Assembly (NCBI RefSeq): GCF_000003815.2
Contig: NC_049983.1
Location: 27,736,320-27,800,319 of the forward strand
Length of the DNA: 64,000 nt
DNA from: Branchiostoma floridae
Taxonomy: Eukaryota; Chordata; Leptocardii; Amphioxiformes; Branchiostomatidae
Reading direction: 5' to 3'
Positions 12,409 to 56,347 of this stretch are shown here, one piece after another; within the stretch, counting starts at the first letter, position 1, and each line of letters begins with the position of its first letter. The translations under genes were made by a program, and so were the position numbers. Under the pieces are notes generated by a model. That model did not search any database and had not been told where the DNA came from. It was given only the letters and a program-made list of their open reading frames with translations.

Positions 12409-28282
<15,874 letters not shown>

Positions 28283-28885
28283 CCCGACAGTCGTCACCCA
28301 ACGGCCTCTCCAAGCGTTTCACACGGCTCTGCGCCCTTCCCTGGTCTCCCTGACAGCACTGCTCACCACGGAAATATGACAGGAGATCCCCGGCTGAATC
28401 CTGGCGTGTCTGTGACAGTTTTGAGGAGATTTTAGAGATAAAATCGTTGATAATCGCGATATCACCACACCCGTTTGTCCATTCTCTCCACTGAACCACC
28501 GACAGGCATGACGGGAAACAGGCACAGGACCCGGATGTACATCGGCAAAACATTTTTCCCAAATATGCAAATAACTATTCTAACAATGTGAATTGAAAAA
28601 AAATAATTCATCTATTGAATAATCAAATCAGTTTCCGTTACCTACATACGATATAAGAAAACAACATAGATGGGAAGGATTTAAAGGATAAGTAGACTAT
28701 TTATAAACTATACCTGTATCATATTTCTGTGTTTCCATTCAGTTGTGTAACTCATTTCCATACTCGGGACAAGTCAATAGTGCCTTTGCAGTCCTGTCGG
28801 AGTTCGCGAGCGTGCAGGTCAACAACACCCGACTAAGAAACAACAAACAAGTAAACAACAACAGTTCCCGTGAGGACAGAGCGCC
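28283..28885. promoter_or_regulatory. head-to-head intergenic region between GNAI and ACAD9
   Basis: 603 bp separate the GNAI start codon (minus) from the ACAD9 start codon (plus), so both promoters must lie here unless a 5'UTR intron exists. An octamer motif ATGCAAAT lies at 28565-28572. The GNAI-proximal part is GC-rich and the middle is AT-rich. No clear TATA box is placed properly for either gene. The arrangement suggests a bidirectional promoter. Confidence 0.6.
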
Positions 28886-31800
28886 ATGCTGAGCTCGGGG
28901 AAGCTGCGGCCGGCGCTGCGGCTGGTCCGGCGTCCGTGGTGCGTCTCGGCCGGCGGGCTCCACACCTCGGGCCGCCGACTGCACAACCCCGACGAGGTCG
29001 ACCTGTTCGACTTTCGTTACACAACCCCCTTCGTCAAAAACCTGTTCGTCGGCAAGTTTATCCGGGTGAGTATTAAATTGAGGAAAGCTGTTGGTTGGTG
29101 AGTTATACTAAACTGTAATACTGTCCAGGGGACAAGTATATCCCTGTTTGCGGACTACGGAACGATAAGGGGAGGGGGGCTAAGGTTATGCTATGACGCA
29201 ACCCCCTTGAGGATGACACTGGAATGAAAGATCGGCTATGGGGGAGCAACGTTTAGCACGGTTTATGGTATGTGCACATGTACGTATGGGATTAAGATAA
29301 AGACTACCCACTGTCCTTACGGACTGATACCCAGTCTGTCCACCTTAGGACTGACACCCCCTCCCGACCCCCAGTCGGTCGACAGGGCCTAACCCCTCCC
29401 CCCAGTCTGTCCACAAACCCTGACCTCCCACCCAACTGCCTCCCCACCCCCAGTCTGTCCACAGGACCTGAGGGTGACACCTCCTTCCCTCCCTGTCCCA
29501 GTCCACAAGTCCCGATTCCCTACCCCCCTCTGTCCACAAGGATTGACATTGACACCCGCACCTCCCCCTACCTGTTTCATTTGTTGTTTATCTGGTTGTT
29601 ACCCAGGAACAATTGTTGACTTGTTTATTTGTTGTTTAGGAACAAGTGTTGACTTGTTTGTGTGTTTGTTCCCCAGGAACAAGTGTTGACTTGTTTGTTT
29701 GTTTGTTCCCCAGGAACAAGTGTTGACTTGTTTGTTTGTTTGTTCCCCAGGAACAAGTGTTGACTTGTTTGTTTGTTCCCCAGGAACAAGTGTTGACTTG
29801 TTTGTGTGTTTGTTCCCCAGGAACAAGTGTTGACTTGTTTGTTTGTTCCCCAGGAACAAGTGTTGACTTGTTTGTTTGTTTGTTTGTTTGTCCCCAGGAA
29901 CAAGTGTTGACTTGTTTGTTTGTTCCCCAGGAACAAGTGTTGACTTGTTTGTTTGTTCCCCAGGAACAAGTGTTGACTTGTTTGTTTGTTTGTTCCCCAG
30001 GAACAAGTGTTGACTTGTTTGTTTGTTCCCCAGGAACAAGTGTTGACTTGTTTGTGTGTTTGTTCCCCAGGAACAAGTGTTGACTTGTTTGTTTGTTCCC
30101 CAGGAACAAGTGTTGACTTGTTTGTTTGTTTGTTTGTTTGTTTGTCCCCAGGAACAAGTGTTGACTTGTTTGTTTGTTCCCCAGGAACAAGTGTTGACTT
30201 GTTTGTTTGTTCCCCAGGAACAAGTGTTGACTTGTTTGTTTGTTTGTTCCCCAGGAACAAGTGTTGACTTGTTTGTTTGTTCCCCAGGAACAAGTGTTGA
30301 CTTGTTTGTTTGTTCCCCAGGAACAAGTGTTGACTTGTTTGTTTGTTCCCCAGGAACAAGTGTTGACTTGTTTGTTTGTTTGTTCCCCAGGAACAAGTGT
30401 TGACTTGTTTGTTTGTCCCCAGGAACAAGTGTTGACTTGTTTATTTATTTCTTTGTTTGTCCCCAGGAACAAGTGTTCCCGTTCCCCCGACTGAACCAGT
30501 CAGACTATGACCAGCTGCAGCAGATGGTGGACCCGGTGGAACGGTACTTCAAGGATGACGGTGAGTCCAGCCTTCTCGCTAAAATCCCTTTGTAACTTTG
30601 GAAGGAGGCTGTAGCTTCCCTGAGTCCAGCTGTCTCTCTAAAAACCCTCCATAAAGTTGGAGAGAGGCCTCAGCTTCCCTGAAATTCGGAACATTGCATC
30701 AAGTCTTCATAATCATGATAATGCATGATGTTAGATGTGACTGGTCATTCGGTGTAATATAAACAGCTGCTGCCGCACCGCGTGCCACCGGCTATATAGA
30801 TACAGATACAGATGTATATAAATTCATAAAATTTGTTTGTTTACTTGTTAACTTCATACACACCCACTGTACTGTACTTGTATTGTAAATGACTTACCAA
30901 GCTTAATCATATAGATGGAAAAAGGACTAATGCCATGTCATTGTAAGAAACCCTCATCTTCAGGTGTAGTATGTGGGAAAGGACAAGCTCAAGCCAACTG
31001 TTCACACTTACGCCACATCTTCAGAAAAGACGCTGGAGCCGCATGTTCCCTGTTTAGGAACTTTATTCGAACAAGTGGGCTTGAGGTTGTCCTTCCCCAC
31101 ATACTATACCTCATCTACAAGTGTTGCCATTAGAGACTGTTATATGTGAAGCAACATCTGTACATGTATGTCATGAGATGTTTTGCTGTAGATAGTTTCT
31201 GACTGTTTCCTGTGTTGCTGCTTGCAGTGGACTCTGCGCAGATCGACATTGACGCCAAAATCCCTGCAGAAACCCTGCAAGGCCTGAAGGACCTGGGACT
31301 GTTCGGGATGCAGGTGCCAATGGAGTACGGTACGTTTGTTTGTTTGTTTGTTTGTTTATATCCCCATGGAAACCCTGCAAGGTCTGAAGGACCTGGGACT
31401 GTTCGGCATGCAGGTGCCAATGGAGTACGGTACGTTTGTTTGTTTGTTTGTTTGTTTGTTTATATCCCCATGGAAACCCTGCAGGGTCTGAAGGACCTGG
31501 GTCTGTTCGGGATGCAGGTGCCAATAGAGTACGGTACGTTTGTTTGTTTGTTTGTTTGTTTGTTTATATCCCCATGGAAACCCTGCACGGTCTGAAGGAC
31601 CTGGGACTGTTCGGCATGCAGGTGCCAATAGAGTATGGTACGTTTGTTTGTTTGTTTGTTTGTTTATATCCCCATGGAAACCCTGCAGGGCCTGAAGGAC
31701 CTGGGTCTGTTTGGGATGCAGGTGCCGCTAGAGTGCGGTACGTTTGTTTGTTTGTTTGTTTGTTTGTTTGTTTATATCCCCATGGAAACCCTGCAGGGCC

Positions 31801-32469
31801 TGAAGGACCTGGGTCTGTTCGGGATGCAGGTGCCGCTAGAGTGCGGTACGTTTGTTTGTTTATATTTTTGGCTTGACACTTGTCATCTGATGTAGTATTG
31901 ACTGTTATTTGACATAGTCTTCAGCACTTACATACTCACACTCAGTGTCCGGGTTATCGTCTGTTCCTCCCATCTTCTCCTTTGGCAGGGTTAGACACGC
32001 TGTACTGGCCTGACAGCCCAGGGAAAGTCTAAGTGCCAATCAGCCATACTTGCTTAATCAGGCTCATGAGGTATTTTCCATGGTCCATGCATGGATACTT
32101 TTTACTGAAAAAGAGAATTACTGCCTTGCTGAGGGTTACGCTATGTGCCAGGTGCCTAGTTCTCTTTCCTGCAGAGTAATGCTGTGTAGATAAAGTGAGG
32201 ACAGCTTGAAATTACAGATCCAGGACTGACGTATCCTCTGCTTCCATGCCATGTAGGTGGGCTGGGCCTGTCCAACACAGAGTACGCCCGTCTGGGTGAG
32301 ATCACAGCCATCGACGGGGCGATCGCGGTGACCTTGGCGGCGCACCAGGCCATCGGGCTGAAGGGCATCCTCATCGCGGGAAACGACGAGCAAAAGACAA
32401 AGTACCTCCCGAAGCTGGCGACGGGCGAGCACGTGGCGGCCTTCGCGCTGACCGAGCCTTCCAGGTGAG

Positions 32470-32523
<54 letters not shown>

Positions 32524-34544
32524 TGTTATGTTACCCCCTATGTTATGTTATTGGGTGGGCTGCCTACTCTCTCTTTGCAGCCAGGGGAAGAACCATCAGG
32601 AATCAGATATTGTCTGCTCTAGATTATGAATTATAGATAGAATCTGAGCATGGAGATTTCTTTATTGCATTTTTTCCCCAGGGAGATAAATGTATAATAC
32701 ATGGTGTAATCGACATTAGTGAAATGAAATCTAACACAAGAAATACTTAACAAAATGTACTACTGAATATCTAAGTTGTAGTAGCTTCTTCTCTCTTTTT
32801 AAAAGATATAGCAACATAGTTTCATATGTTTATGGTATTTTCTTCACAAGAAACTTGTACTGTATCAGGTGCATTTAGAAACTGTTGGCAACTGTAAACA
32901 GTTTTCCCTGTAAAGGTAAGTTCAAGTCAGAAGCCTCCCTAAACTGAACAACCCCAAAATTATGGACTTTCTGTTATGAACACTTTTGCTTCAGCCTTGA
33001 CATGACTGATTTTGTTTGTCATTCCCGCAGCGGAAGTGACGCTGCTTCGATCCAGACGCGAGCGACTCTTAGCGACGACGGAAAACATTTCCTACTGAAC
33101 GGGGGAAAGGTGGGTAATCTCTCCCTTCTGTCACAGGGCAGAGATTCTTCTTCCTTTTGTAGTAAATAACATTGGCAGCATTATTATTAGATACAACTTG
33201 TAAACAAATAGTACTGTCGACTCTGCACTGTTGACCACCTCTGCGTAAGGACCACCTGCTTCGATCCAGACGCGAGCGACTCTTAGCGACGACGGAAAAC
33301 ATTTCCTACTGAACGGGGGAAAGGTGGGTAATCTCTCCCTTCTGTCACAGGGCAGAGATTCTTCTTCCTTTTGTAGTAAATAACATTGGCAGCATTATTA
33401 TTAGATACAACTTGTAAACAAATAGTACTGTCGACTCTGCACTGTTGACCACCTCTGCATAAGGACCACCTGAGCATTGTGGTCACTTTTTCAAGCTTCC
33501 TTCGATTATTTTTCCCATTGAAACCAAGTTGCGAACTCAAGTATCACTTTCTGATTTTTTCTTCTTCCTTGCACCATGAGAGAGTGGGGCCAACTGCAGG
33601 GCTTAAGTGTGCAGGCACTGATACAGTATAGGCCTTCAGGACTATATAATTATATAAGCAGCTGCCCTGCCTTAATCCGTAGGTACAACCCTCAATCATA
33701 CCCCAGCAGAGGTGGTTAGAACTTAGAGGGTTCTCACCAGGATTTTGTCACAGCATTGGGAACACTAAGAAATTCTGCTTCTTGCATTTTGAGGCTCAAA
33801 TTTAGTGAAATAAATTTATGTTACAAAAAAGAAAAAAACAGAAAAGTCCGGATCCCCTTCACTGGTTTAAAAACAGCGTAAAGCCCAAATCACTGAGCTT
33901 AGGGGATCCAAATCACAGCGTAAGAGCCTGACGAGAACAAGAAAAAGACCCAAGCATTGAGAACCCAGTGTTTAGTGTCCAATTGTCTACAGTGATCTTT
34001 TCTTCAATTAATGAAGTGGTCACCGTGACAGGTTTGACTGACTTATGTCCATAAAAATATGCACAGATATGTAATTTTCCTATTTTCTCACCCGACCTTC
34101 CCAACTTTTTTCTTCGAATGATTTCTGTCTCTCCTCAGATCTGGATCTCGAATGGCGGCATCGCTGACGTCTTCACGGTGTTTGCCAAGACAGAGGTCGT
34201 GGACAGCGCGTCCGGCAAGGTCAAGGACAAGGTCACGGCCTTCATCGTGGAGCGGAGTTTTGGCGGGATCACGAGCGGCAAGCCGGAGGACAAGCTGGGG
34301 ATCCGGGGGTCCAACAGTAGGTGGAACATAACTTTCATGTACATGTTCACTCACTCTCTCTTTCTCTCTCTGTCTCTCTCTGTCTCTCTCACAATCTGGG
34401 GGTCCAACAGTAGGTGGAACGTTATTATGCAGACATTCATGTACAGGCTCTCTCTGTCTCTCGCTCTCTCTCACAAGCTGGGGATCCGGGGATCCAACAG
34501 TAGGTGGAACATAACTTTCATGTACATGTTCACTCACTCACTCG

Positions 34545-34579
<35 letters not shown>

Positions 34580-34745
34580 AAACTGGGCATCTGGGGTCCA
34601 ACAGTAGGTGGAACGTTATTATGCAGACATTCATGTACAGGCTCTCTCTGTCTCTCTCTCTCTCTCTCACAAGCTGGGGATCCGGGGGTCCAACAGTAGG
34701 TGGAACATTATTGTGCTGATATACATGTACATGTGTCTCTCTTTC

Positions 34746-34780
<35 letters not shown>

Positions 34781-37700
34781 GCCTGTACAAGTAACAACTC
34801 CAATTTTAGCTGCTCTGATCTGCTCAATGGAGATTTCAATTAGGGTGGGCTTTTTTACGTTTGAATCTGTCATTATTTTCAGCATCTAACTCCTCACCTG
34901 TGTTTCTCAGCGTGCACCGTGCACTTTGAAGACACGCCCGTCCCGGTGGAGAACGTCCTTGGAGAGGTCGGCGGGGGTTTCAAGGTCGCCATGAACATCT
35001 TAAATGGCGGGCGGTTCAGTATGGGCAGCAGCGGCGCCGGCATCGTCAAGAAGCTGATTGGTCAGTGAAAACTGTTAGAAGCTGATTGGTCAGTGAAAAC
35101 TGTTAGAAGCTGATTAGTCAGTGACTGTTAGAAGCTGATTGGTCAGTGAAACATGTAGTGTTTGAAGCTGATTGGTCGGTGAAAACTGTTAGAAGCTGAT
35201 TGGTCAGAAAAACTGTTAGAAGCTGATTGGTCAGTGAAAACTTTTAGAAGCTGATTGGTCAGTCAAAACATTTAGAAACTGATCAGTGCAAACTGTTAGA
35301 AGCAGATCGTAGAAGCTGATTGGTCAGCGAAAATTGTAAAAAGCTGATTGGTCAGAGAAAACTTTTAGAAGCTGATTGGTCAGTGACAAACTGTTAAAGC
35401 TGATTGGTCAGTGAAACATGTAGTGTTTGAAGCTGATTGGTCAGTGAAAACTGTTAGAAGCTGATTGGTCAGGGAAAACTGTTAGAACAGAAGCAGACTG
35501 GTCAGTAAAATTGCTAAAACGTGTTAAGAGCTGAATGGAAAGTGTTAGAAGCAGGTAGTCAGTAGTACATACAGGAGAAACACATCAACTTTTGTTTTTG
35601 TTTGAAAATTGGCTCTTTAGTTAGAGGTTGTTGAGTGTATCGCTGATCCTGCTGGTATGTTGTTGACTGTCTCCTTCCTGTTCCAGAACAAACAGCAGAA
35701 CACGCCACAAGTCGTGTACAGTTCAACAAGAAGCTGATGGAGTTCCCACTCATTCAGGTAGGGGGAGCTGCAGGACTGTGTCATTAGGGGTGGGCCAACA
35801 AAACTCATCTCTATCATTTACCCATTCTGACGGCAAAAACTCAGTCTTTGTGACTTCATCTAACCACTATTGGTATTAAGTCCAGTCACAAATTTGCATG
35901 GAAAAGAATGGCTCTTCCTTCTGCTTAGAAAGTCACAACAGTCCATTAATTTTTTTTCCATTTGGGTTGACAGGAATACTTTGATTAAAGGGGAGCTGTA
36001 TGTTTTATTGACAGTAGAAGTGTGATTGACAGGAGCTGTATATTTGATTGACAGTAGAAGTTTGATTGACAGGAGCTGTATATTTGATTGACAGTGGAAG
36101 TTTGATAGACAGAAGTTTGACTGACAGGACCTGTATACTTGATTGACAGGAGAAGTTTGCCAAGGTGGCGTTGCGAGCCTATGCCATGGTTGTCAGGAGC
36201 TGTTTGATTGACAGGACCTGTATACTTGATTGACAGGAGAAGTTTGCCGAGGTGGCGTTGCGAGCCTATGCCATGGTTGTCAGGAGCTGTTTGATTGACA
36301 GGACCTGTATACTTGATTGACAGGAGAAGTTTGCCGAGGTGGCGTTGCGAGCCTATGCCATGGTTGTCAGGAGCTGTTTGATTGACAGGACCTGTATACT
36401 TGATTGACAGGAGAAGTTTGCTGAGATGGCGTTACGAGCCTATGCCATGGTTGTCAGGAGAAGTTTGATTGACAGGAGCTGTATACTTGATTGACAGGAG
36501 AAGTTTGCTGAGATGGCGTTACGAGCCTATGCCATGGTTGTCAGGAGAAGTTTGATTGACAGGAGGTGTATATTTGATTGACAGGAGAAGTTTGCTGAGA
36601 TGGCGTTGCGAGCCTATGCCATGGAGAGCATGGCGTACCTGACGGCCGGCATCATGGACCGCTGGCCGGGCGGAGACCCCGACTGCTCCGTGGAGGCTGC
36701 CATGGTCAAGGTCAGTTTACTCTCAAGGTCAAGAACTGTACTGAACAGTTTATGGCAGATAATGGTAACCCCATGTTGTCTCCATGGTAACTGATGTTTT
36801 CTCCATGGTAACTGATGTTGTCTCCATGGTAACTGATGTTGCCTCCATGGTAACTGATGTTGTCTCCATGGTAACCCCATGTTGTCTCCATGGTAACTGA
36901 TGTTGTCTCCATGGTAACCCCATGTTGTCTCCATGATAACGGATGTTGTCTCCATGATTACTGATCTTGTCTCCATGGTAACGGATGTTGTCTCCATGAT
37001 AACGGATGTTGTCTCCATGATGACTGATGTTGTCTCCATGGTAACAGGTGTACAGTTCGGAGAGCGTGTGGACCAGCGTGAGTGAAGCGCTGCAGGTGCT
37101 GGGAGGCCTGGGCTACATGATAACTGATGTTGTCTCCATGGTAACCGATGTTGTCTCCATGGTAACAGATGTTGTCTGCATGGTAACAGGTGTACAGTTC
37201 GGAGAGCGTGTGGTCCAGTGTTAGCGAGGCCCTGCAGGTGCTGGGAGGCCTGGGCTACATGATAACCGATGTCTCCATGGTAACTGATGTTGTCTCCATG
37301 GTAACGGATGTTGTCTCCATGATAACTGATGTTGTCTCCATGGTAACAGATGTTGTCTCCATGGTAACAGGTGTACAGTTCAGAGAGCGTGTGGTCCAGC
37401 GTTAGTGAGGCCCTGCAGGTGCTGGGAGGACTGGGCTACATGAAGGAGTATCCGTACGAGCGCTACCTGAGAGACGCGAGGATCCTCATGATATTTGAGG
37501 TCAGTTGTAGGGCTGAACATATAAACATCATATACAACCTGAACTATCTTTAGTGTCACTGACGAAAAAAAGTTGATACTAGGAGTTTTTTTGCACAACC
37601 AGTTTTCTCTTACTGACATTTCGATGTCTGTCAGACATCTTCCTCAGAGCTTCTAACTGGTGTTCTGCTTCTCACTGCTATATGTAGTGGCGAGAAGGTG

Positions 37701-40700
37701 AACTTCAGTTAAAAGATCTGAGGAAGATGTCTGACTGATGTTGAAATGTCAGCAATTGAGAAAAAACTGATTGTGTGAAAGAAAACTTTCATGTCCTGTG
37801 ATCTACCATCCTGATGAAATTATTTTTGGAAGATTAGTGGATACTATCTAAAACTTCTGACCATTTCCAAAATCATATCCAGTTGCTTGAGTAACTGCTT
37901 TTTGGATGATGTTGATTGTGTTGATGGTGATGATGGTTATGATGATGATGGTGTTGATGGTGGTGTTGATGATGAAAAATGATTGCATGTTTGTTTGTTT
38001 GTTTGTTTGTTTGTTTTTCCAGGGGACCAATGAAATCCTGCGCATGTACATCGCCCTGGTGGGAATGAAGTTTGCTGGAGACATACTGAAGGAGAAACTC
38101 AAGTGAGAAGTTTAGATTTCTAAACCTACTTCAGAATTTGCAAAAGACACAAGTTGCAGGGCAATAGCAAATAGAGGGCCCTTTACAAAGAGTATCGCTA
38201 GTATATATTACATGTATGTTTATACAGTTTGATGTGACTTGTCCCCCAGGCAGCTAAAGTGATGGAATACTGGCTGGATTCTGCAGTGCTAAGCCATTCT
38301 GGTAGGGGGTGCTATTATGTGCTGATGTTATGATATTAATCCATTTTTAGGAGCTTAAGCATGGAAACACTATGAAAACACTATGAAGTTCTCGTACAGC
38401 ACGGCATCTAAAGCCAAAGACAGGCCAGGCAACGTTAAGGCCTCCAATGCTAGCATCGAGAGTTCAAGTTATGATATTCGACCAAAGAACGGTCTTGCGA
38501 CACCCAACAACACATTTATTATGTCAACATTGAACTGTAGAACTCTTGCCCATAAATCTCCAAAAGCTGAACTAAACAAGCTCATGTCTGACGTCAAGAT
38601 ATCAGCTGTGTGCATTCAGGAACATCGTGTCATGCACAAGAGTGAAGACCCAGACATCATAGCCCATGATCTTGGCACCAATACTCTCTTCACTACATCT
38701 GCACTAAAGAACGCGGCCAACGCGACGATTGGCGGAGTTGGAATTGCTGTTTGTTCTTCCTTGTTACCTCTAGTTACATCTGTTGAGAAGATCTCAGATC
38801 GCATAGTTGTAATGAGTATCAGGGGCAACCCAAAAACTATTCTGGTGTCGTGCCACTCTCCACACAGTGACAGGCCGGAGTGCGAGGTGGAAGAGTTTTA
38901 CTCTACCCTGAATTCTTTTGTTCAGTCCACACCGCTACATGCCATGTTACTTATTGGTGGGGATTTCAACGCCAGGATAGATGGCAAATTCTCGTTCCAC
39001 CAAATACCAAATCGTAACGGAGGCTACCTATTAGACCTTGTTAACCGAAACAACCTCATCGTGGGCAACACTTCATTCCAAAAACCTAAGAATAGACTGT
39101 GGACTTGGAGATCTCCAAATGGTAACCTAGCCCAGATCGACTTCTGTCTCTTCAGAAAGCGGTGGAGGAACAGCATCAAGGACTGCCAAGCTTTCAACTC
39201 CTCCAATCCCATTGGCTCCGATCACAGAATGGTCTCCACCAAGATCCGTCTTAGTGTCCGTAAGCCCAAAACCATGTCATGCACTAAGTTGTATTGGCGA
39301 GCTTTAAGAGAAGACCACGAGCTTGCAAGCACAATTGATGATGACATTGCCCATACGTATGCTAATCTACCAGATCAGCAGAAATCCTACTCTTCTTTTG
39401 TAGAAATCTGTAACAAAGTAGGCAGCAAGAGGCTTCCACGGAAACCACCTCGTGACCCTGATCCAGTAGATACCATTCAAGTGTCGATTGCACGCCGGGC
39501 TACCCTTCGTTCGTCCACTAAAGATGTTCAAACTGCCCAGATCCAGCTTAAAAAGACTTACGATAGATGTGAAGAAGATAGAATCATTAAGACACTTCAG
39601 ACTTTCGAAGCAAGCTCAGCCCCAGAGCATCTGAGAGCATGGAAGCTAGTGCGCGAGCTATCTGGTAAAAGATCAGGCGTGATCTTTATCCAGGGAGAAG
39701 ACAGACTCAACACCTGGAAAAATCACTTCTCCAAGCTCCTTAACAATGATGTCCCTCAGTCCAGCTCCACTGGAGTTCCGATCACCCCAGTATTTGACAC
39801 TAACTACAACATTAGCTGCGATCCCTTCACTCAGGGTGAAGTTGACATAGCTCTGAAGCAAATGAAAGCCGGAAAAGCCCCGGGACTGGACGGCCTGCCA
39901 TTAGAAGTGTGGCAACTTCCCAAAGCTAGGCAGTTCCTAACCAACTTTTGCAACCAAACTCTGTCTGGAAACAGGCCGGATGAGTGGGGATTGTCGGGTA
40001 TAGTCCCAGTCCCAAAGAAGGGAAACCTTACCCTTCCTGACAACTACAGGGGCATATCCCTCACTCAGATAGCCGCAAAAGTGTACAACCGCCTTCTGCT
40101 CAACAGAATAAGGCCAGTTGTTGATAAGCTCTTACGCCCCAATCAGAACGGCTTTCGTCCCTCACGCTCAACGTCAGCTCAAATCCTGGCCCTACGCCGA
40201 ATCGTTGAAGAGGTGCAGAACCACCAAAAAGAGGCAGTGCTCATTTTCATCGACTTCAAAAAAGCGTTTGATTCGATCAACCGCATCACAATGTTCAAGA
40301 TCCTTGCAGCCTATGGTGTGCCCACGCCTATAGTCGACGCAATCAGGGTAATGTACGCTAACACCATCGCTACAGTCCTCACCCCTGAAGGTGAAACTGA
40401 CACCTTCAACATCAATACTGGTGTCCTGCAGGGTGATCCCCTGGCCCCATTTCTCTTCTTTGTTGCATTGGACTATGCACTGCGCAAGGCTGTCAATACC
40501 AACGACGGCCTCACTCTGAGGAGAAGACAGAGCTCGCGTCACCCAGCTGTGGTTTTGCCGGATTTAGACTTCGCGGATGACATCTGCCTGCTTGAAGATA
40601 CTATCCGTGCTGCACAAGTCTTTCTACACCGTGTAGAGTCTGCCACCCAGGAGATTGGTCTACTCCTAAATGCGTCTAAGACCATGGTCATGCACATCAA

Positions 40701-43700
40701 CCCCCCTGTCGACCCTCAGGTCTTAAAAGCAAGTGATGGAACTGTCATAGAGCAAGTCAGCGACTTTAAGTATCTCGGAAGCTTCTCCAATACAGCCTAT
40801 GACGTCAGTCACCGTATCAGACTAGCATGGGGAGCATCCCATTCCCTCAGGAAGGTGTGGAAGGCTCCAATTCAAAATACCACCAAGATCAAAGTCTTCA
40901 AATCGAGTGTTGAGTCTATTCTGCTCTACGGGTCTGACTCTTGGTCTTTAACTAAAACCCTGTGCAAGAAACTCGACGGGAACTATACCCGGCTTCTCCG
41001 TGCCACCTTGGATGTTGACTGGAAGAGTCACACCTCTAACACACAGCTTTACAACGGTCTGCCACGGATTACTAGAGTCATTCGCGACCGACGCCTGGCC
41101 CTTGCTGGTCATGTGATGCGTCACGACGAGATGGCCGGTAGGGTTCTTCTCTGGCGGCCCGACGAGAAGAGAAGACGTGGCCGACCAACCCTGACCCTTA
41201 AGAGGGTGATTGAGGAAGATGTTGGCCTCCAAGACGGAGACCTCCTGTCTGTCATGCGCGACAGGGTCGTATGGAAGAACTTCATAGCGTCACCAGATAA
41301 GGATGAACTGAACTGAACTGAACTGAAGCATGGGAACATGGGGCTGATCCTGCAGTGCCAAGTCATGGTGCTAGAGGGCGCTTGTGTGCCGCCTGTGTTA
41401 ATATATAATATGTACCCCACAGGGATCTGAAGAGCGGGAACATCAGCCTGCAGTACTGTGCTGTGCTGCTAGAGGGAGCTAATGTATGATATTTATCCCA
41501 CAGGGATCTGAAGCAAGGGAACATCAGCCTGCAGTACTGAGCCATGCTGCTAGAGGGCGCTAATGTATAATGTTTACACCACTGGGTTCTGAACCATAGG
41601 AACATCAGCCTGCAGTACTGTGCTGTGTTGCTAGAGGGCGCTAATGTATGATATTTACCCCACAGGGATCTGAAGCAAAGGAACATCAGCCTGCAGTACT
41701 GTGCTGTGCTGTAAGAGGGCGCTAATATATGATATTCACACCACAGGGATCTGAAGTGCGGGAACATCGGCCTGCAGTACTGTGCTGTGCTGCTAGAGGG
41801 CGCTAATGTATGATATTCACACCACAGGGAGCTGAAGTGCGGGAACATCAGCCTGCAGTACTGTGCTTTGCTGCTAGAGGGAGCTAATGTATGATATTTA
41901 CACCACAGGGATCTGAAGCAAGGGAACATCAGCCTGCAGTACTGAGCCATGCTGCTAGAGGGCGCTAATGTATAATGTTTACACCACTGGGTTCTGAACC
42001 ATAGGAACATCAGCCTGCAGTACTGTGCTGTGTTGCTAGAGGGCGCTAATGTATGATATTTACCCCACAGGGATCTGAAGCAAAGGAACATCAGCCTGCA
42101 GTACTGTGCTGTGCTGTAAGAGGGCGCTAATATATGATATTCACACCACAGGGATCTGAAGCGAGGGAACATCAGCCTGCAGTACTATGCTGTGTTGCTA
42201 GAGGGCGCTAATGTATGATATTTCCACCACAGGGATCTGAAGCGTGGGAACATCAGCCTGCAGTACTGTGCTTTGCTGCTAGAGGGAGCTAATGTATGAT
42301 ATTCACACCACAGGGATCTGAAGCATGGGAACATCAGCCTGCAGTACTGTGCTTTGCTGCTAGAGGGAGCTAATGTATGATATTCACACCACAGGGATCT
42401 GAAGCATGGGAACATCAGCCTGCAGTACTGTGCTGTGTTGCTAGAGGGCGCTAATGTGTGATATTTCCACCACAGGGATCTGAAGTGCGGGAACATGAGC
42501 GTGCAGTACTGTGCTTTGCTGCTAGAGGGAGCTAATGTATGATATTCACACCACAGGGATCTGAAGTGCGGGAACATCAGCCTGCAGTACTGTGCTTTGC
42601 TGCTAGAGGGCGCTAATGTATGATATTTACACCACAGGGATCTGAAGCGAGGGAACATCAGCCTGCAGTACTGTGCTGTGCTGTAAGAGGGCGCTAATGT
42701 ATGATATTTCCACCACAGGGATCTGAAGCGCGGGAACATCAGCCTGCAGTACTGTGCTGTGCTGTAAGAGGGCGCTAATGTATGATATTTCCACCACAGG
42801 GATCTGAAGCGCGGTAACATCGGCGTGATTCTCCAGACCGTGCGCCAGCGATGGGGCTCGGGACTCGGGCTGGGGCCGAGTCTGGGGTTCATCTCGGAGG
42901 ACCGGTTCATCGGAGACGGCTTCAAGTCGCATCCCAGCGTCTCGGTGAGACCGCTCACATGATCGTAGTTTTTTTTTTTTTTTGTTAATTTTGGAGTACT
43001 GAAGGAGGAGCATGGTGTTAAATTGCTTCTGTTTTTTTTTTATCGACATGTTTTTTTAATCTTTTTATCTTATACTGTAAATGCAGAAATGTTCGTGGTG
43101 GCTTAATGTTCTCAGTTTTTGCGGTGGCCACTTCACCGCAAATTTAAAACCACCGCAAACATTTTTCCATGGCATTAAGAGACTACAGTACATGATGATA
43201 CTGCAAAATTAAAACCACCGCAAAATGTCCTTTTACCCACTACCGCGAAATTAAATCCCTGCAAACTTAGATGCATTTACAGTAATCTGTACAATATGTG
43301 TAAACTCTAAGTTAGCTCCAGGTACTCAAGTTGTGAGAAGTAAAATGTGGTTGCGTTTGCAAGTGTGCAAGTGGGTATATTTTGAGCACTGGTCAGTCTA
43401 AATCATAATGTTTCCATCTTTCCCCAGGCCGGAGCCAAGCTTCTGGAGGAGAACGTAAACACGATGGGGATGACGACGGAAACGCTGCTGGCCAGACACG
43501 GCAAGGTGAGAGCTGCGAAACTAAGACATCTGCCTGTATAAGTGGTGCCATATGCTCTTGTAAAAACACTCCAAATAATGCATACTTCTCAGAACACATG
43601 GAGCACAATAGAGGAGATCGCCATGGTTTGAGCACTACACGAAAAAGCGAATATCTGGGTCGAATACTCCTGCATATAAACCCAGATATTCAAAATATGT

Positions 43701-46700
43701 GGCCGATAACGGGTATATGCCGTCCGCACACTTGGTATAGACGGACCTGCATATGACCCGGAGATTCACAACTATTAGTGTGCGGGACATATGGAGGCCG
43801 ATAATGCCTGCATATGTGCCTGGCCATCCCGGTGCATGTCCCGCCCATGTCCGCTCATCCGACCCAAATTTCCTGCATATGCCTGCCTATTCGGGACATG
43901 CACCCTTGTTAGCACCTAATTATCACCTAATTATCTCACCCAGGCCTCGACTAGAGCACCCTTTGTCATTGAAAGCAGCTTTGTTTTACTACCCTGCCCT
44001 ACCTAGGATCCCCCCTCCCTGTAGTGTGTATATTTTGCTTTTATTCTTTCTGAATGGTGAATGAATCTGCTTTATATTTGGCGACGCCTCAGGGGCGGAG
44101 GCATTTTCTACAGTATTACGATCGCTTTGAAAGAATTTTGAAAATTCCACGAATGCATTCCCTTGGGAATTGATTTTTGGCTAAACCACAGGGGTGTCGT
44201 CCATACAGTGGTCATTGAAGACTATTCTAGCTGTTATTCTTCCTTTGTTGAGGCATTCTTTGTTTTCAGGATCAATGATTTAAGGGAACGGTCTTTTCAC
44301 ATAGCCGGAAGTGACTGCGCTCCTTGCATATCATAAGCCGTACACATAGATTATTACGATGTTTCGCATGCTTTATGAATTTGCAATGGCAACCAATATG
44401 TCCCAGCTTTTTGCCGTTATGTCTTTTATAAGCCTGTGCTTTTTACAATATAGAATGAAATGCTGTCAATTGGTTATCGTTCGGAGTCATAGAGAGCCTG
44501 ATTTTGAGTGGTAGAAAAATAAGATGTTTTAAAGAAGACAAGACCAATATAGCACAACTTTTGCCAATATCTTCTGAGCTTTGCTTTTATAAAGTGGGAT
44601 AATATGCTTCACGAGGTCAAAAAAATATAGAAGACCAATGTGTCACAGATTTTTGTCGATATCTTTTTATGAAATATGAAATGTTGCGCTTTCAGGTGGT
44701 TGTCGTTTTGAATTGAAGCTGGTGTGTTACGCCGAAGGACTGTCATACCAGGTTATACCGGCTATATAGATACAGGTTACGTAAAGCCTGATTTTGAAAA
44801 GTTAATAAGTCACATGTTTCAAACAAGCCATGAAACCAATGGGTTTCAAGTTGTTTAGATTCTGCTTTGAAGACTAGCATAGCTAGAATAAAGGAAGGAC
44901 GCAGAGACAAGGTTTTCCGTACACTGGGCACGGGAGACTGTTAAGATGGTTTGACGTTACTATATACTAGTAATGCTGGCCTCGCTAACTTCGTTCTTAG
45001 CTGCGGATCTCTCTTTTTCTTCTGAACTATACTCTCTGACTCTCTGTCATACAAATACATTATATCTGGTGGGCACATTTTGGCGTATCAAACAGACAGG
45101 TCTTGTCACACCACAAAACAACGGTTATTTCATCTACGGTCCATTCATATACATATAAAATCAACTACTACAATGTATACACTAAAATACATATTCGTGA
45201 TATAAACAGTCAATCAATCAGTCAATCCGTGAATTCTATAACTGGTGTCATGTCAGGTTATCTATACATGTACAAGTATGATCGCAATCTATCGGCTGTA
45301 CGTCTTGGCTCTGCTACTGGCCTCTACTTCCCTCATGTTGCCCTCCTTCTGTAGATGGCGCTGTTCTGGATGTTGTGTGGCTCCCCTCTGTTCAGAATTT
45401 TCAAGCCGCACAAATGTATCTTCTAGCTCCTCCCAGCGATCGATGGCCACTTCTGCATATTCTTATGTTGGTTTTCTTCATTAGTACATACACCTCCGGT
45501 TTGATTAGGTCCGTCGTCGCTGTGGGAAAATTATGTACGGTTCTTTGTTGTACATATAAAATCCACTATTATAATATATACACATTATATATACATATTC
45601 ATGGTATAAATCAGCCAAAACCAGCCCGTGAATTGTCTAACTAGTTTTAGGTTTTCTGTGGTTGTGGCAGTGCAATCGATTCGCTGCTCTAGATCTGCTA
45701 CTGTTCTGGCATTTCTTAGGCCCTCTCGTTGTCTTCCTTCTGTGGACGGTGCGGTTCTGGGTGATGTGTAGCTCCTTCCCGACNNNNNNNNNNNNNNNNN
45801 NNNNNNNNNNNNNNNNNNNNNNNNNNNNNNNNNNNNNNNNNNNNNNNNNNNNNNNNNNNNNNNNNNNNNNNNNNNNNNNNNNNNNNNNNNNNNNNNNNNN
45901 NNNNNNNNNNNNNNNNNNNNNNNNNNNNNNNNNNNNNNNNNNNNNNNNNNNNNNNNNNNNNNNNNNNNNNNNNNNNNNNNNNNNNNNNNNNNNNNNNNNN
46001 NNNNNNNNNNNNNNNNNNNNNNNNNNNNNNNNNNNNNNNNNNNNNNNNNNNNNNNNNNNNNNNNNNNNNNNNNNNNNNNNNNNNNNNNNNNNNNNNNNNN
46101 NNNNNNNNNNNNNNNNNNNNNNNNNNNNNNNNNNNNNNNNNNNNNNNNNNNNNNNNNNNNNNNNNNNNNNNNNNNNNNNNNNNNNNNNNNNNNNNNNNNN
46201 NNNNNNNNNNNNNNNNNNNNNNNNNNNNNNNNNNNNNNNNNNNNNNNNNNNNNNNNNNNNNNNNNNNNNNNNNNNNNNNNNNNNNNNNNNNNNNNNNNNN
46301 NNNNNNNNNNNNNNNNNNNNNTGTTGAGTGGGCATCACAGAAGTTTTAGACAAGGACGCAAGTCTGGGGACGTATGCAGAGCAAATGACTGGGAGCCAGA
46401 CACAAGAATCCACAAATTTCCTGTCAGATCACTAAGGTCGTTGTCTTCCCGTTCAACATAACCTTTCACTTAACTTAACTAAACATAACTAAGTCGACTT
46501 AAACCAGAGCAGCACAACGGGCATACTCACCTGAGGAGAAATTCATACATAATCTCATAGGCGATTAGTTACTCGAATCCTCAGCATGCGGCCATTTGTC
46601 TCCATTTTGCAAGTCCATGTCAGTCGAACCAGTCCATGTTTCTTTTGAAGTCCAACAGTCCAAGGTCGTCGTCATGTTGACTGGAACATTTCTGTCCGGG

Positions 46701-49700
46701 GCTAAAAATACACCAAATGTGAAGCCAACTGGCGATTGAAGCAATTGAAAAAAAGTTAACAAAACAAGCCTTCAATTAGGAACAATTTGAAGAGAATGGC
46801 TCAGAAAAATACCGTTCAGAAACGAAATAGTTAGGGTTTTTCTGCCACAGCTTTGCGTGGTACCATCTGTGAACGGATGGGAATCATGGATGCGTGAGTG
46901 GAAGTCCGGCATGTTACAGGGGGATTTCAATCGCCAGATTGGTTCAACTAGAATCGCCTGTCGAACTGAATGGATTTCAGAGATTTTGCGTGCCAAAGCT
47001 ACTAAATCACGAGCTATGGTTTCTGGAGCCCATTGGCGTCTACATATATCGTTGTGCCCTAGCTCTACGTACACAATGTGAGGACTGGTTTGCTGCAGAA
47101 TAGGAAGCACACTAGCGTAATATTTTGGGATGGTGCAACCCGGCACGCCATGAAACTGAATGTCTACGTAATAGATACCCAAAAATTAGGACAAATTGCT
47201 CGTCGGAGGCTGTCATAGTACGACGCCGAACAAATGACTTCTGTCGGGATACAAAAGAGTGTCTGGTAATGGCAATGTTCGTAGTTGAAGTATCAGAAGG
47301 ACAAGTTTGTAACAAGATACAACAATATGGCAGCTCACCGTGGAGTTGAGTTCGGTCACTGAAGAAAGGTTCGGCTAGTTGATCGGTGTTGACCGGATGT
47401 TCGCCTCTCTAAGCTGAAGACGGGTCAAGAAGGGTCAGGAAGTCAACAGTCTGGGAGTACGTTGTCAAAGCACTGTCCAAGCAATGCCGCCGGGTACGTA
47501 CGAACAAGTTCGGAGGAAATCCGGCTTGAGACCGCGAAAATTGTGTCCTATGTTAAGGGCCTCGCAAGGGCTCTGTAGGGAGACACCGGAACGGGGACGT
47601 GATTGACCGGTACCGAGGAATGAACCGACGGAGACCTAGCTGACTGGCTCCAGGGACGGGCCGACGTTTACGGGGTCTTGGCGCGCTGGCTCCGCTGAAC
47701 GGGAAGCGGTTTCCGCCGACGGGGCGTATACGTGGTGGCTTGGCCAGCAAGATGAAACTAGGGACAAGCGTGTTCAAATCGTCCGACAAGGTTAGAGGAA
47801 AGACTTAAGCGAAAACTCGAGAAATTTTAGAGCGAAAAGTCTGCGATGCATACGCCACGAGATGCGCTGCTGTAATGACCGCTTTAGCGGTACCGTGGCA
47901 CCTTGCCGTGCCAGCGGCCGGGCCACATACGGAGTTCTGTCGGTAATAAACAAAGGGATGTTTTTGGCATTGATTAGCACGGCGGCATTTCGGCTCAGAT
48001 CAATTAGGGATGTCACCGATTACTAAGAAATTCCGACATCACCAAGACAATGACGCCGACCCCATGTGGCCATGGTCTGGCTAACATCGTTACCCGAACT
48101 GAGATGAATTATGCAGATGGACTGATTACAAAGGGGCGCCGCAATGAGTAAAATTTTTGTCACTTAGATCGGCTCTCATTCATTCCATTCAAAACATTGT
48201 ATTCGCGCTGATGTCATCCACAATAGCTACTTACTGTGGCCTAATACTAAGTGAGGTGAAAGGGTCAACACAATATTGGATAAAAGATTTGCCAAAAGAA
48301 TTAATAAATCTCTCAAACAAGATCTTCAACAGCTCCTCAAAAATAAGGGTAATGTTACGGTCACATTTACAAACGGGAACCGACCATGCAACTTTCGCTC
48401 CTCAAGCTGGGGGTAGTTTTACGGTAACAGTTCCAACCCGGGGTCCAATTGGGCAGCTCTCGTGAACAAATAAAAAGTATGTAGAGGGCCTAAAACACAC
48501 AAAATGCAAAGAAAATAAGTAGTGGCCATAATTTGTGAACTGATAAACGACCATAAACAACTTTACTTTTTAATTTGGATGTCTATCCTTCATAAATGTA
48601 GCTTTATTTTTTTTTTATTCCGGTAACTTCCGGTTGGGAAATGTGACCGTAACATAAGACATTCATGATCATTCTTAGGTAGCCTTATTAGCAAGTTCAC
48701 AGGTACCAGTTTTGTTGATGCCAAAATGCCTAAGAAAAAGGCGAACACGTTCAAACACGCGTGATCTTTGGGCCTCCTTCCCAAGGGTGTACCATCGGGC
48801 ATGCATTTGGTATGCGGGAGCGTGACCTGAAAACTACGAAGGCTCAGAACTACATTAACCATATTTTTCTCTGTACTAATAATACCATATNNNNNNNNNN
48901 NNNNNNNNNNNNNNNNNNNNNNNNNNNNNNNNNNNNNNNNNNNNNNNNNNNNNNNNNNNNNNNNNNNNNNNNNNNNNNNNNNNNNNNNNNNNNNNNNNNN
49001 NNNNNNNNNNNNNNNNNNNNNNNNNNNNNNNNNNNNNNNNNNNNNNNNNNNNNNNNNNNNNNNNNNNNNNNNNNNNNNNNNNNNNNNNNNNNNNNNNNNN
49101 NNNNNNNNNNNNNNNNNNNNNNNNNNNNNNNNNNNNNNNNNNNNNNNNNNNNNNNNNNNNNNNNNNNNNNNNNNNNNNNNNNNNNNNNNNNNNNNNNNNN
49201 NNNNNNNNNNNNNNNNNNNNNNNNNNNNNNNNNNNNNNNNNNNNNNNNNNNNNNNNNNNNNNNNNNNNNNNNNNNNNNNNNNNNNCTTGTAGCATTCTTA
49301 GGTAGCCTTATTAGCAAGTTCACAGGTACCAGTTTTGTTGATGCCAAAATGCCTAAGAAAAAGGCGAACACGTTCAAACACGCGTGATCTTTGGGCCTCC
49401 TTCCCAAGGGTGTACCATCGGGCATGCATTTGGTATGCGGAAGCGTGACCTGAAAACTACGAAGGCTCAGAACTACATTAACCATATTTTTCTCTGTACT
49501 AATAATACTATGTACAAACATACTGTTGAAGATGATCTACACTTTTTATTATCATGTCCCTCGTTTATATTGAGGAAAGACAGAAGATTATGGACGTAAT
49601 TACCTTGTATATTGTGCATCCTATAATCCGTCTTCTTATGGACCGAACCGGTCAGATAATGTCACATAGTCCTTAATCTTTAATTCTTTGGAATTCTACA

Positions 49701-52700
49701 TTATTGTTATGGTTATCTTCTTTATGAGAAATCAGGAGAAACCAGACTGATGCGTATGGCTGAAGAAAAGCGGATCCTGCGAAAAGAACTCTACAACAGA
49801 CCTGAGTCAGCTTGCAGATGTGCCCTATGTGGCAGAGAATGTAATGCTGGTATAGGGCCGTTTAGCCACAGTCGACGCTGTAGGGCTGATATCAATTAGG
49901 ATTTTGCCATGGTCAATATTGACCGAATGAGACCATATATAGATTGAAGCCGTCAGTTGCAGTAGCAATTTAAGTCCTTAATTTTTAATGCTTTAAATCT
50001 CTCTATTATTGTTATGGGAAGTTCTTGATACAAGTCTTGAAGTTTTGTACATGTACTGTTTTAGATCTTGTTTGCACGTGTTGCAATCGATTGAAGGATC
50101 GATCGACTGACAATTCGGACTATAACCAAAGTCAAAGATAATGTCATAATAAGAAAATTGCCTGTGTAATAGTATCAGAAGTTCAGAATATTTTCGCCCC
50201 TCCTTAATTTTCGCCACTTTTGCCCCCCCCCCCAAGGAACCAACCCCGCACAAACAAGATACCCCCCCCCCCTCAAGCTCACCATATACACCCCGGGGCG
50301 GGTCAGTAACATTAAAATGCGTCGCCTATAGGTGTCTTTTTTAGACACCTTTACTTGTTTATCAAACTTTTTATTTCAAAGTATTTCTGGACAGTAGACT
50401 GTCCTGACGATTTCCTCCATATATTATGTGCTAGGAATGATGCTCCTTTTACGTCTTGTGAAGTTCTGCATTCCCGCTATCATACATTCTGTTGTCCACC
50501 CGTCTTCTGCACAGACTTTTGTTAGTCAGGAGCACAGTTGCGGCAAAATTTCTAAACGTGAACGTGAAGATTTGTGGTAACCATTGATCCATCGCGACAC
50601 GGGTGGGCAGCCTCCACTGTCCACCCGAGCCAACCACGGCCTCCGGCAGCAACTTTTAAGCCAGCCCTACATGGTGACGTGTGACGTAGTCTCAAACCGT
50701 CCGCAAAATCACAACCGGGCATGTCAGTCGTACCCCACCGTACTCTACAGCGCCTGCCCGCTCGTAAGGCTGGATACTAGCTATAAAATTACAGTTGTTT
50801 AAAACTCCAATCAGAATCCAATCCTTCCAGCGTAGGCAGTTCAAATTCCAAGCGGGAAGATGTTGTTTAGTCTCGAGGTCGTATCATTCTAAATCCCTCA
50901 GTGTTAACTGACGTTGTCTGCCGTGCATGCAGATATCCAGCTATCGGGATCCGTTGCGTAAAAGCGCAACCTCACAGAAAGAAGTCTAGCTCTGAAATGC
51001 CAACTGTAAAATTTGAAAATGTTGACATGTGTGTTGATTGGTCCTTATTTTCAAACACCTACATGCTGTGTGAAATACAATTGGCTAGTTCTGATGAGTA
51101 TTTGCATACAGACAGACACAATAGGTCGGGAGGTCCACTGTAGCTAAATTCAGCTTTTGTCACCTGGCCAGTTCACAGTCAAACAATACCCACAAGGAAC
51201 TAGGTGAAAATGTGTTACTGTAATTGTTAATGATTTCATACATCAGTCTGGTAACAAACATATTGTTGTTGCAACAAGCATTATCCACAAGGATAAAAAC
51301 GAATGAAGGCTTCCAATGCGAGCGTGGGTATATCATATACCCCATGTTTTCTTTTGTTTCAAAAGCACAACATTGGTCTTTAGACTGAAGCGGCCGTTTC
51401 ATTGATAAGCTTAGGGCGTAAAATGACTACCCCACCATAGAATGGTGGAGAATGTTACCATCAAACGTGTTAGATTTTACTTAGAATGTCCATTTCGTGT
51501 AGTTCAATCTAGGCAACAAACTGCCGCAGCAAAAAAAAAAAAAAAACGAATATCAAAATTGAGCGTGGGTAAGCCATGTTTTCTTTTGTGTCAAAAGTTT
51601 CAAAAAAAAGTAAAATTAGTTGATTAGCTAAAAACGTAAAACCGAAGCTTAAGAATATAATAATACCAAACGCTGGTATACGATGCCCTCAGTTATTTTT
51701 AGTGTTCGTTCAAGATACAACAATTCATTGGAAAACGATGATACGCGCCATTCGTGCGTAGGCCTTTCTTTGTTCTTGTAAAACAATGCATTCGTTTATA
51801 TCAGGCGTTTGTGAGTTTTGTTGACTGAAAATGCCAGACAAGTCAATAAACATCCGCTTGGAGGGTACTTTTATGTAAAGCGGATGTCCTTTACCAATCT
51901 TACTCAAACCTATTCTTATGACAAAGCATCATTACGTCTATCAATTCACACACAAGATGGTCTCTTGTTTGGCATTACTCAAGACACGAGACGTGAGCAG
52001 GGGCCGCATATCCCCATACATGTCTAATTACCGGATGTGCAGGTATAAGCGGTAATATGCAGGACCCGCGCTTGTCATAACAGGATATGACTGCACATGC
52101 CCCGGATACACCAGGTTTCACGGGACATATGCAACCCCAAAAACGACCGGATATTCAAGTTTTCGTGTAGTGGAGAAGATTAGTGAATGCATCCACATGG
52201 GGATGACGACAGACATCTGCCTGTATAATTTATTTATTCGTTTGGCTGATGTCAGCCAAGGCCGCCCAACTAGCCGTGTCTATTACAAAGGGCTGACCTG
52301 CCTGTATAAGTGGCATATGCTCTTGTGAAATCACTTCTAAATGTATAGTATTATTACATTATACTTCTCAGAACACATGGAGCACAATAGAGAAGATTGC
52401 TATGGTTCGAGAAGATTAGTAAATGCATCCACAAGATTGGCAGGCACAAAATGACTAAGAGTTTGATAGTAGAACAAGCCCTCCTACATTCATACATGTA
52501 CTGTGTTAAATGGTATTTCGTTGGCCTCCGACTGTTTGGGGACATATCATTGTGGCAGATTTGCAATTTTTTCTCCAATTTTCCCCTGTAGTTTCACTGA
52601 TGTTCAACACACGGGTAAAATACAGGCCAGCTACAAATGAAATTGCTGGGCCCAGAATGTCACATCCTCAGTTTTGCCCCCAATTACCTGTAGATACAAG

Positions 52701-52938
52701 ATAATTTTTGAAAAATGTACTGTTACCACCACATTAAAAAACAATGTACAATAACAAAAATTCATCAGTAAAAGATCGCAACTGTAGTGACTAGTCTGTG
52801 CTCATTCACAACATATTGCCCATTGCGATTTTCGTGCAATTTTAGAAAATTTGCTATTTCAAGCAACTGATAGGTGACGTCTTGTTAGAATGTTAACGAA
52901 TGTCTTTTACAAACCAACAGACGCTGCCTATTAAGATA

Positions 52939-52971
<33 letters not shown>

Positions 52972-55902: not shown

Positions 55903-56347
55903 CGGACATCTGTATCTATATAGCCAGTATAACCGCCCTTCAGCGTAACACACCAGCTTCTGTATCTATATAGCCGGTATAACCGCCCTTCGGCGTAACA
56001 CACCAGCTTCTGTATCTGTATTTATATAGCCGGTATAACCGCCCTTCGGTGTAACACACCAGCTTCTGTACCTGTATCTATATAGCAGGTATAACCGCCC
56101 TTCGGCGTAACACACCAGCTTCTGTATCTGTATCTATATAGCCGGTATAACCGCCATTCGGTGTAACACACCAGCTTCTGTACCTGTATCTATATAGCAG
56201 GTATAACCGCCCTTCGGCGTAACACACCAGCTTCTGTATCTGTATCTATATAGCCGGTATAACCGCCATTCGGTGTAACACACCAGCTTCTGTATCTGTA
56301 TCTATATAGCCGGCATAACCGCCCTTCGGCGTAACACACCAGCTTAT
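55903..56347. repeat. ~55-bp satellite array, eight units
   Basis: The unit reads TATATAGCCGGTATAACCGC, then CCTTCGGCGTAACACACCAG, then CTTCTGTATCTGTATC. Eight copies differ by single bases (CCGG/CAGG, TTCGGC/TTCGGT) and by 6-bp gain or loss of TCTGTA. A lone inverted unit lies at 44717-44778, and CCGGCTATATAGATACAGAT near 30788 is a fragment. Confidence 0.92.

Follow-up and report, generated by a model that had tools for sequence, protein, structure and literature searches.

In the amphioxus Branchiostoma floridae, 8 of the 30 intron borders of the ACAD9 gene carry a tandem array whose repeat unit spans the splice site. The gene lies in a stretch of 64,000 nucleotides on contig 5 (positions 27,736,320–27,800,319; 1,382 N inside; assembly of 513,431,437 bases), which we refer to as the window. 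Judging from their anatomy, the arrays are of a known kind, the mirage minisatellites of amphioxus, at a locus that is unusually rich in them. The reading that we favor, with a probability of roughly 0.7, is that they would arise by slippage or microhomology-guided duplication, and would be tolerated across exon borders since the authentic splice site stays innermost. In the literature searched, the class has so far been described from a handful of amphioxus genes, and a locus with many arrays in two diverged copies makes it testable whether borders attract tandem duplication and, likewise, by what means the splicing machinery distinguishes an authentic site from its many near-identical neighbors. 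Border arrays would also offer material from which new exons and introns could form, a proposal made in the globin work (PMC3087553).

The ACAD9 gene model consists of a single open frame of 649 amino acids in which 15 of 15 introns follow the GT...AG rule, and the top PDB matches of its exon 6 translation are the ACAD9 structures 8phe and 8phf. Arrays were found at four donors (exons 3, 5, 6 and 7) and four acceptors (exons 2, 9, 10 and 12), with spacings of 28–214 bp and with 11–73 bp of exon sequence copied beside the first decoy, as we call the additional copies of a splice site (Table 1). The window contains 70 such decoys in ACAD9, and the GT or AG dinucleotide is intact in 68 of them. 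Donor arrays extend downstream and acceptor arrays upstream whatever the copy number, as follows from the anatomy, while 22 of the 30 borders had no array at the thresholds used. There were no cross-matches between the units of different arrays at E 1e-3, and the arrays are therefore private and independent; for the same reason, a single mobile repeat dispersed through the gene is ruled out. An initial annotation of this DNA had assigned private arrays to the same eight borders, with an exon numbering that matches ours, and had regarded them as independent events. Both points held, and its sizes (units of 29–214 bp, 11–71 bp of exon copied) needed slight adjustment. Exons 13–16 were beyond its range, and its description of the arrays as gene-wide in ACAD9 understated the matter, as the neighboring G-alpha gene and other genes are affected too.

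As a control for chance similarity, we aligned each 50-bp exon edge both to its own intron and to introns belonging to exons at least three exons away. The own-intron score was above all 438 controls at 7 of the 30 ACAD9 borders in the window. The eighth array, at exon 2, is outside the reach of this control, as only 11 exonic bases are copied, which is too few. In a second, inverted copy of the locus (see below), 6 of 30 ACAD9 borders scored above all 388 controls, and the exon 7 and exon 9 arrays of that copy fail the strict test of own intron against controls.

Table 1. Border-spanning arrays and associated features of the window (positions count from its first letter).
Feature	Position	Strand	Remarks
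ACAD9 gene	28886..54337	+	16 coding exons, 649 amino acids, frame intact; rebuilt from DNA; PDB matches 8phe/8phf (exon 6 translation)
ACAD9 exon 2 acceptor array	29584..30477	+	border 30466/30467; spacing 32-70 bp, 23 decoys, 11 exonic bp copied
59-bp x2 repeat	30562..30682	+	begins one base inside exon 2 donor, crossing not clear
ACAD9 exon 3 donor array	31269..31861	+	border 31329/31330; 100-108 bp, 5 decoys, 61 exonic bp
ACAD9 exon 5 donor array	33042..33472	+	border 33109/33110; 214 bp x2, 1 decoy; not found in second copy
ACAD9 exon 6 donor array	34291..34711 (extent approximate)	+	border 34316/34317; 90-104 bp, 4 decoys
ACAD9 exon 7 donor array	35049..35487	+	border 35060/35061; 28 bp and longer spacings, 10 decoys, 12 exonic bp
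ACAD9 exon 9 acceptor array	35992..36624	+	border 36584/36585; 87 bp and a 40-55 bp part, 8 decoys, 40 exonic bp
ACAD9 exon 10 acceptor array	36773..37443	+	border 37370/37371; 142-181 bp units over 21-bp subrepeat, 2 decoys, 73 exonic bp
Non-long-terminal-repeat (non-LTR) retrotransposon	38357..41330 (ends approximate)	+	RVT_1 and endonuclease domains; missing from second copy
ACAD9 exon 12 acceptor array	41399..42821	+	border 42799/42800; 81 bp, 17 decoys, 22 exonic bp
G-alpha(i) gene	12409..28282	-	head to head with ACAD9; complete; 8 exons and second version of exon 6
G-alpha exon 3 acceptor array	20750..21193	-	exon start 20808; 111 bp, 3 decoys
G-alpha exon 4 acceptor array	18098..18558	-	exon start 18163; ~50/100 bp, 5 decoys
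G-alpha last-exon acceptor array, degenerate	12600..12930 (extent by eye)	-	exon start 12599; 3 decoys

The second copy lies inverted on the same contig at 27.93–27.98 Mb (C5:27930001-27980000), corresponds to at least 10.1–64 kb of the window and covers both G-alpha and ACAD9. Most of its large blast pieces are ~90–96% identical to the window; across 25,685 aligned bases, intronic and exonic, the two diverge by 5.4% in substitutions, and synonymous divergence is 0.15 for ACAD9 and 0.13 for G-alpha. The second copy may represent a retained alternative haplotype, or else a recent duplication in inverted orientation. The ACAD9 frame is intact in both copies and the encoded proteins are nearly identical, with 64 synonymous versus 5 nonsynonymous differences (G-alpha has 0 nonsynonymous), so both ACAD9 copies look functional despite their arrays. 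Seven ACAD9 border arrays are common to the two copies (exons 2, 3, 6, 7, 9, 10 and 12), while the exon 5 array is confined to the window and arrays at exons 4 and 14 were detected only in the second copy, giving 10 of 30 borders with an array over both copies. At exon 14 the window has a decayed array relic, seen by eye. A 410-bp x2 repeat crosses the exon 13 donor in the second copy, and the window seems to keep a displaced relic of it at ~52.2–52.4 kb (by eye). Copy number differs at shared arrays as well, for example at exon 2, with 23 decoys in the window and 1 in the second copy, and the differences between the copies show turnover of the arrays. The two repeats of the exon 5 duplication, a young event, are identical at 213 of 214 positions and have CTG at each edge, as a microhomology-guided duplication would leave. 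Intron 13 (window 43506-53084) measures ~9.6 kb in the window, where it includes two N runs and several large insertions, versus ~1.3 kb in the second copy.

The exon 12 array offers a view of age. In the window the retrotransposon sits, by eye, within a degenerate unit of this array; its flanking bases match at 12 of 13 places, as expected of a target-site duplication. In the second copy a different element, with an open stretch of 658 codons (27327-29768 of the joined reversed sequence), splits the array elsewhere; we take it to be Penelope-like, going by motifs in its frame. A different transposon thus splits the array in each copy, and we infer that the array was present before either element inserted.

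Tandem repeats that span exon borders have been described in the amphioxus globins BflGb6 and BflGb9 (Ebner et al., 2010; PMC3087553), where haplotype differences were reported, splicing was suggested to be undisturbed and intron gain was proposed. The same paper credits the term "mirage" to work on amphioxus Adh3 (Canestro et al., 2002). A 2013 paper adds the PGBD5 case and cites TnC (PMC3902484), and a study of VCBP mentions complete or partial exons with splice sites within introns (PMC2632668). Our literature search, with most subscription papers beyond its reach, turned up no genome-wide survey of mirages, and the accessible parts of papers on huntingtin and VLDLR do not mention them. The ACAD9 arrays resemble the published mirages in that the unit spans the exon-intron border, at 5' and 3' borders alike, duplicates the splice signals and has a length that depends on the locus. 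Copy number varies between haplotypes in the published cases and between the window and the second copy, be it allele or paralogue, in ours; published host genes are reported to splice normally, and ACAD9 has an intact frame in both copies. Somatic instability has been reported for the Adh3 mirage, whereas the ACAD9 arrays are known here from assembled sequence alone. The present case differs in that many borders of one gene are affected (8/30 in the window, 10/30 over both copies) and in the length of its units, of up to 214 bp; at the exon 13 donor, the second copy has one of 410 bp. Splice signals are likewise copied within a gene when introns are gained by tandem genomic duplication (AGGT, or proto-splice-site), but the ACAD9 copies sit in existing introns, and no new intron was seen there. 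With ordinary intronic minisatellites the arrays share copy-number turnover and decay; unlike those, the border unit includes exon sequence and a splice site.

We suggest that such an array would be born when a border-spanning segment is tandemly duplicated, through slippage or microhomology-guided template switching, and that it would afterwards expand, contract and decay as any minisatellite. A duplication across exactly one border would leave all extra copies on the intron side, with the authentic site innermost and still bounding the exon. Exon definition, that is, the pairing of the nearest acceptor and donor around an exon, would then keep the authentic site in use, and the decoys would leave with the intron. 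Duplications within an exon or containing a whole exon would alter the mRNA and would mostly be lost. Survival of this sort, rather than a border-specific mutator, would make up most of the excess of arrays at borders that is described below.

The decoys themselves bear on how an authentic site would be recognized. Dozens of decoy splice sites had been announced in the initial annotation, and at the level of the letters this stands, given the 68 of 70 intact dinucleotides and the 37 of 81 decoys in ACAD9 and G-alpha that score no more than 0.5 bit below the authentic site, or higher (scores computed from general splice-site consensus frequencies). Use of a decoy would keep the frame without a stop in only 5 of the 81 cases. 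With many decoys about as strong as the authentic sites and so few open in-frame products, position rather than site strength seems to discriminate; correct splicing would rest mainly on position, and exon definition would be the simplest known rule for it. Decoy bases match the authentic copy at 95.1% on the exon side and 86.5% on the intron side, an excess to be expected if selection holds the authentic exon unchanged.

Border arrays are not confined to ACAD9. The neighboring gene, which we name G-alpha(i) from our own reading of its protein sequence, has arrays at 3 of its 16 borders in the window (at least three arrays). In the chance control, 4 of 16 borders scored above all 83 controls in the window, and 4 of 16 above all 85 in the second copy; the fourth match is marginal and differs by copy (exon 8 acceptor versus exon 8 donor). 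We also analyzed a 200-kb sample made up of ten regions around other ACAD-domain hits in the same genome, picked by domain and not by repeats; 7 of the 10 yielded exons to a tblastn search with ACAD9. To identify candidate exons we trained a codon score on the ACAD9 and G-alpha genes, and we excluded called sites with a score below 0.5 from the counts. On the two known genes, this border caller recovered all 22 donors and 21 of the 22 acceptors. Own-intron copies above all 621 controls were found at 8 of the 87 called borders of 57 candidate exons. All eight are in exons with similarity to ACAD or with ACAD or THOC5 domains, but five of them come from a single region, which contains two related ACAD genes. 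An initial look by homology only, at 32 ACAD-homology exons, gave local copies at 4 of their 64 borders (one border uncallable). The background is thus roughly 5–10% of borders, against which ACAD9 is rich at 8 of 30, a descriptive contrast, as ACAD9 was chosen after the fact. At the donor of a THOC5 exon in this sample (L029:9483, C11:3.6 Mb), the exon edge is duplicated in the following stretch, with a score of 95 versus a control maximum of 28. G-alpha also has two versions of exon 6 (window 17012-16883 and 15821-15692, minus strand), 130 bp each, both in frame and 99.2% and 100% identical to their counterparts in the second copy; they are probably mutually exclusive exons.

Whether borders are preferred depends on what is counted. 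In an area test, the gene model was rotated over the repeats, and the number of borders with a nearby copy was compared with the rotation mean. For ACAD9 there was no enrichment, with 8 of 30 borders versus a mean of 7.12 in the window and 8 versus 9.23 in the second copy. G-alpha gave 3 versus 2.14 and 3 versus 2.16, respectively. In the 200-kb sample, 6 of 87 borders versus 298 of 6,921 background positions (4.3%) had a copy, which we do not take as support for border preference. By area, overlap with borders is unsurprising, because long arrays fill the introns. The array test instead counted arrays reported by Tandem Repeats Finder (TRF; period ≥20, score ≥50) and took as its null only those seeds that would be viable. 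Of the 17 arrays in the two window genes, 8 straddle a border versus 1.30 expected (P 8e-6), in a region that was picked for its repeats; the counts by gene are 6/9 versus 0.87 for ACAD9 and 2/8 versus 0.43 for G-alpha (P 0.06). Neither the exon 2 array, whose TRF row stops short of its border, nor the exon 6 array, which is unlisted at its period, is among the eight; exon 2 is one of the 9 of 17 arrays that do not straddle by the TRF criterion, though it crosses by decoy mapping. The second copy, which is not independent of the window, gave 7/12 versus 1.74 for ACAD9 and 3/7 versus 0.40 for G-alpha.

For homology-supported exons of the 200-kb sample (38 exons, 64 borders), 4 of 42 arrays straddle a border versus 0.57 expected (P 0.002), a result weakened by the fact that two of the four belong to related ACAD genes lying side by side, where a single ancestral event may account for both. 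One further array (L016) is missing from this count, probably because its called donor scored -0.1 against the cut-off of 0.5. A looser count of 8 of 42 (1.24 expected) was set aside, as three of its eight exons (L024 2299, L026 5676 and L028 13246) have no supporting domain, one of these three giving only a weak Atrophin-like match. The evidence for a border preference at the level of arrays is preliminary; an excess is likely, its size uncertain, and the tests run do not separate more frequent birth from better survival. The claim of the initial annotation that junctions are preferred seeds for tandem duplication thus finds support when independent arrays are counted (8/17 versus 1.30; 4/42 versus 0.57) and none when area is (8 versus 7.12; 6/87 versus 298/6,921).

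Several observations weigh against duplication plus tolerance as the whole account. If duplications that damage exons are lost, this alone would not produce an excess over wholly intronic arrays, which is what the array counts of 8/17 and 4/42 show (1.30 and 0.57 expected). Microhomology was read at a single event. At the exon 2 acceptor none of the 23 decoys comes within 0.5 bit and the authentic site outscores all 23, so strength may help there. Moreover, splice dinucleotides in decoys are kept at 160 of 162 bases versus 1,474 of 1,620 in the flanks. Neutral decay does not predict this, and it is hard to explain fully because copies within an array share a history and are non-independent.

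A tentative explanation for the border excess is that purifying selection fixes the exon part of one unit, so that border arrays stay recognizable and re-expandable for longer; the excess would then reflect survival and detectability, not birth. The closer match of decoys on the exon side goes in the direction expected. Such selection acts, however, only on similarity to the authentic copy, while decoys would decay relative to one another as in intronic arrays, and the approximately sixfold excess therefore seems too large for it.

That borders are instead true mutational hot spots, where polypyrimidine or GT-repeat tracts, nucleosomes or transcription-linked breaks start duplications more often, we consider rather unlikely, even though the array-level excess appears both in the window and in a sample not chosen for repeats. 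Few differences between the copies look like recent births; of these, the exon 5 array of the window and the exon 4 array of the second copy each cross a border and the 59-bp repeat abuts one (by eye), but at least three others are plainly intronic (20 and 44 bp in window G-alpha, 47 bp in second-copy G-alpha; by eye). The array units have no common sequence, and by area borders hold no more local copies than introns do, the shares being 27% versus 24% for ACAD9 in the window, 27% versus 33% in the second copy and 19% versus 13% for G-alpha. R-loops or transcription-linked breaks had been proposed in the initial annotation, and we found no evidence for either here. Equally doubtful is the wider proposition that in lancelet genomes borders are genome-wide hot spots where tandem duplications are born several-fold above the intron background, and that decoys which the spliceosome ignores by position alone are carried by roughly one border in ten, rising to about one in four to one in three in hot genes such as ACAD9.

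It is very improbable that the decoys are functional, for instance in regulated alternative splicing or in frame-breaking isoforms that lower ACAD9 output. The well-kept dinucleotides would fit such a role, but arrays and copy numbers vary between copies that encode almost the same protein, an open in-frame product would come from only 5 of 81 decoys, and aberrant mRNAs were not seen in the published cases as far as the accessible text goes (PMC3087553, PMC3902484). We give hardly any credence to an assembly artefact from mis-joined reads or uncollapsed haplotypes: the inverted second copy could itself be an uncollapsed haplotype and the window does contain N, but seven border arrays recur in that copy with different copy numbers and diverged units, the exon 12 array is split by two different transposons, and the authors of the PGBD5 study write that re-sequencing argues against assembly error (PMC3902484).

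Lastly, the window contains repeats of other kinds. A 56-bp array (ATCTGTATCTATATAGCCGG...) lies at 55908-56345, immediately 3' of ACAD9, and is longer in the second copy; lone pieces resembling it near 30790 and 44740 (by eye) suggest that it is dispersed. Repeats at 5048-5428 fall within an open frame with collagen-like Gly-X-Y, and a 33-bp repeat at 59934-60235 falls within a long frame resembling a leucine-rich-repeat gene, both differing in class from the border arrays.

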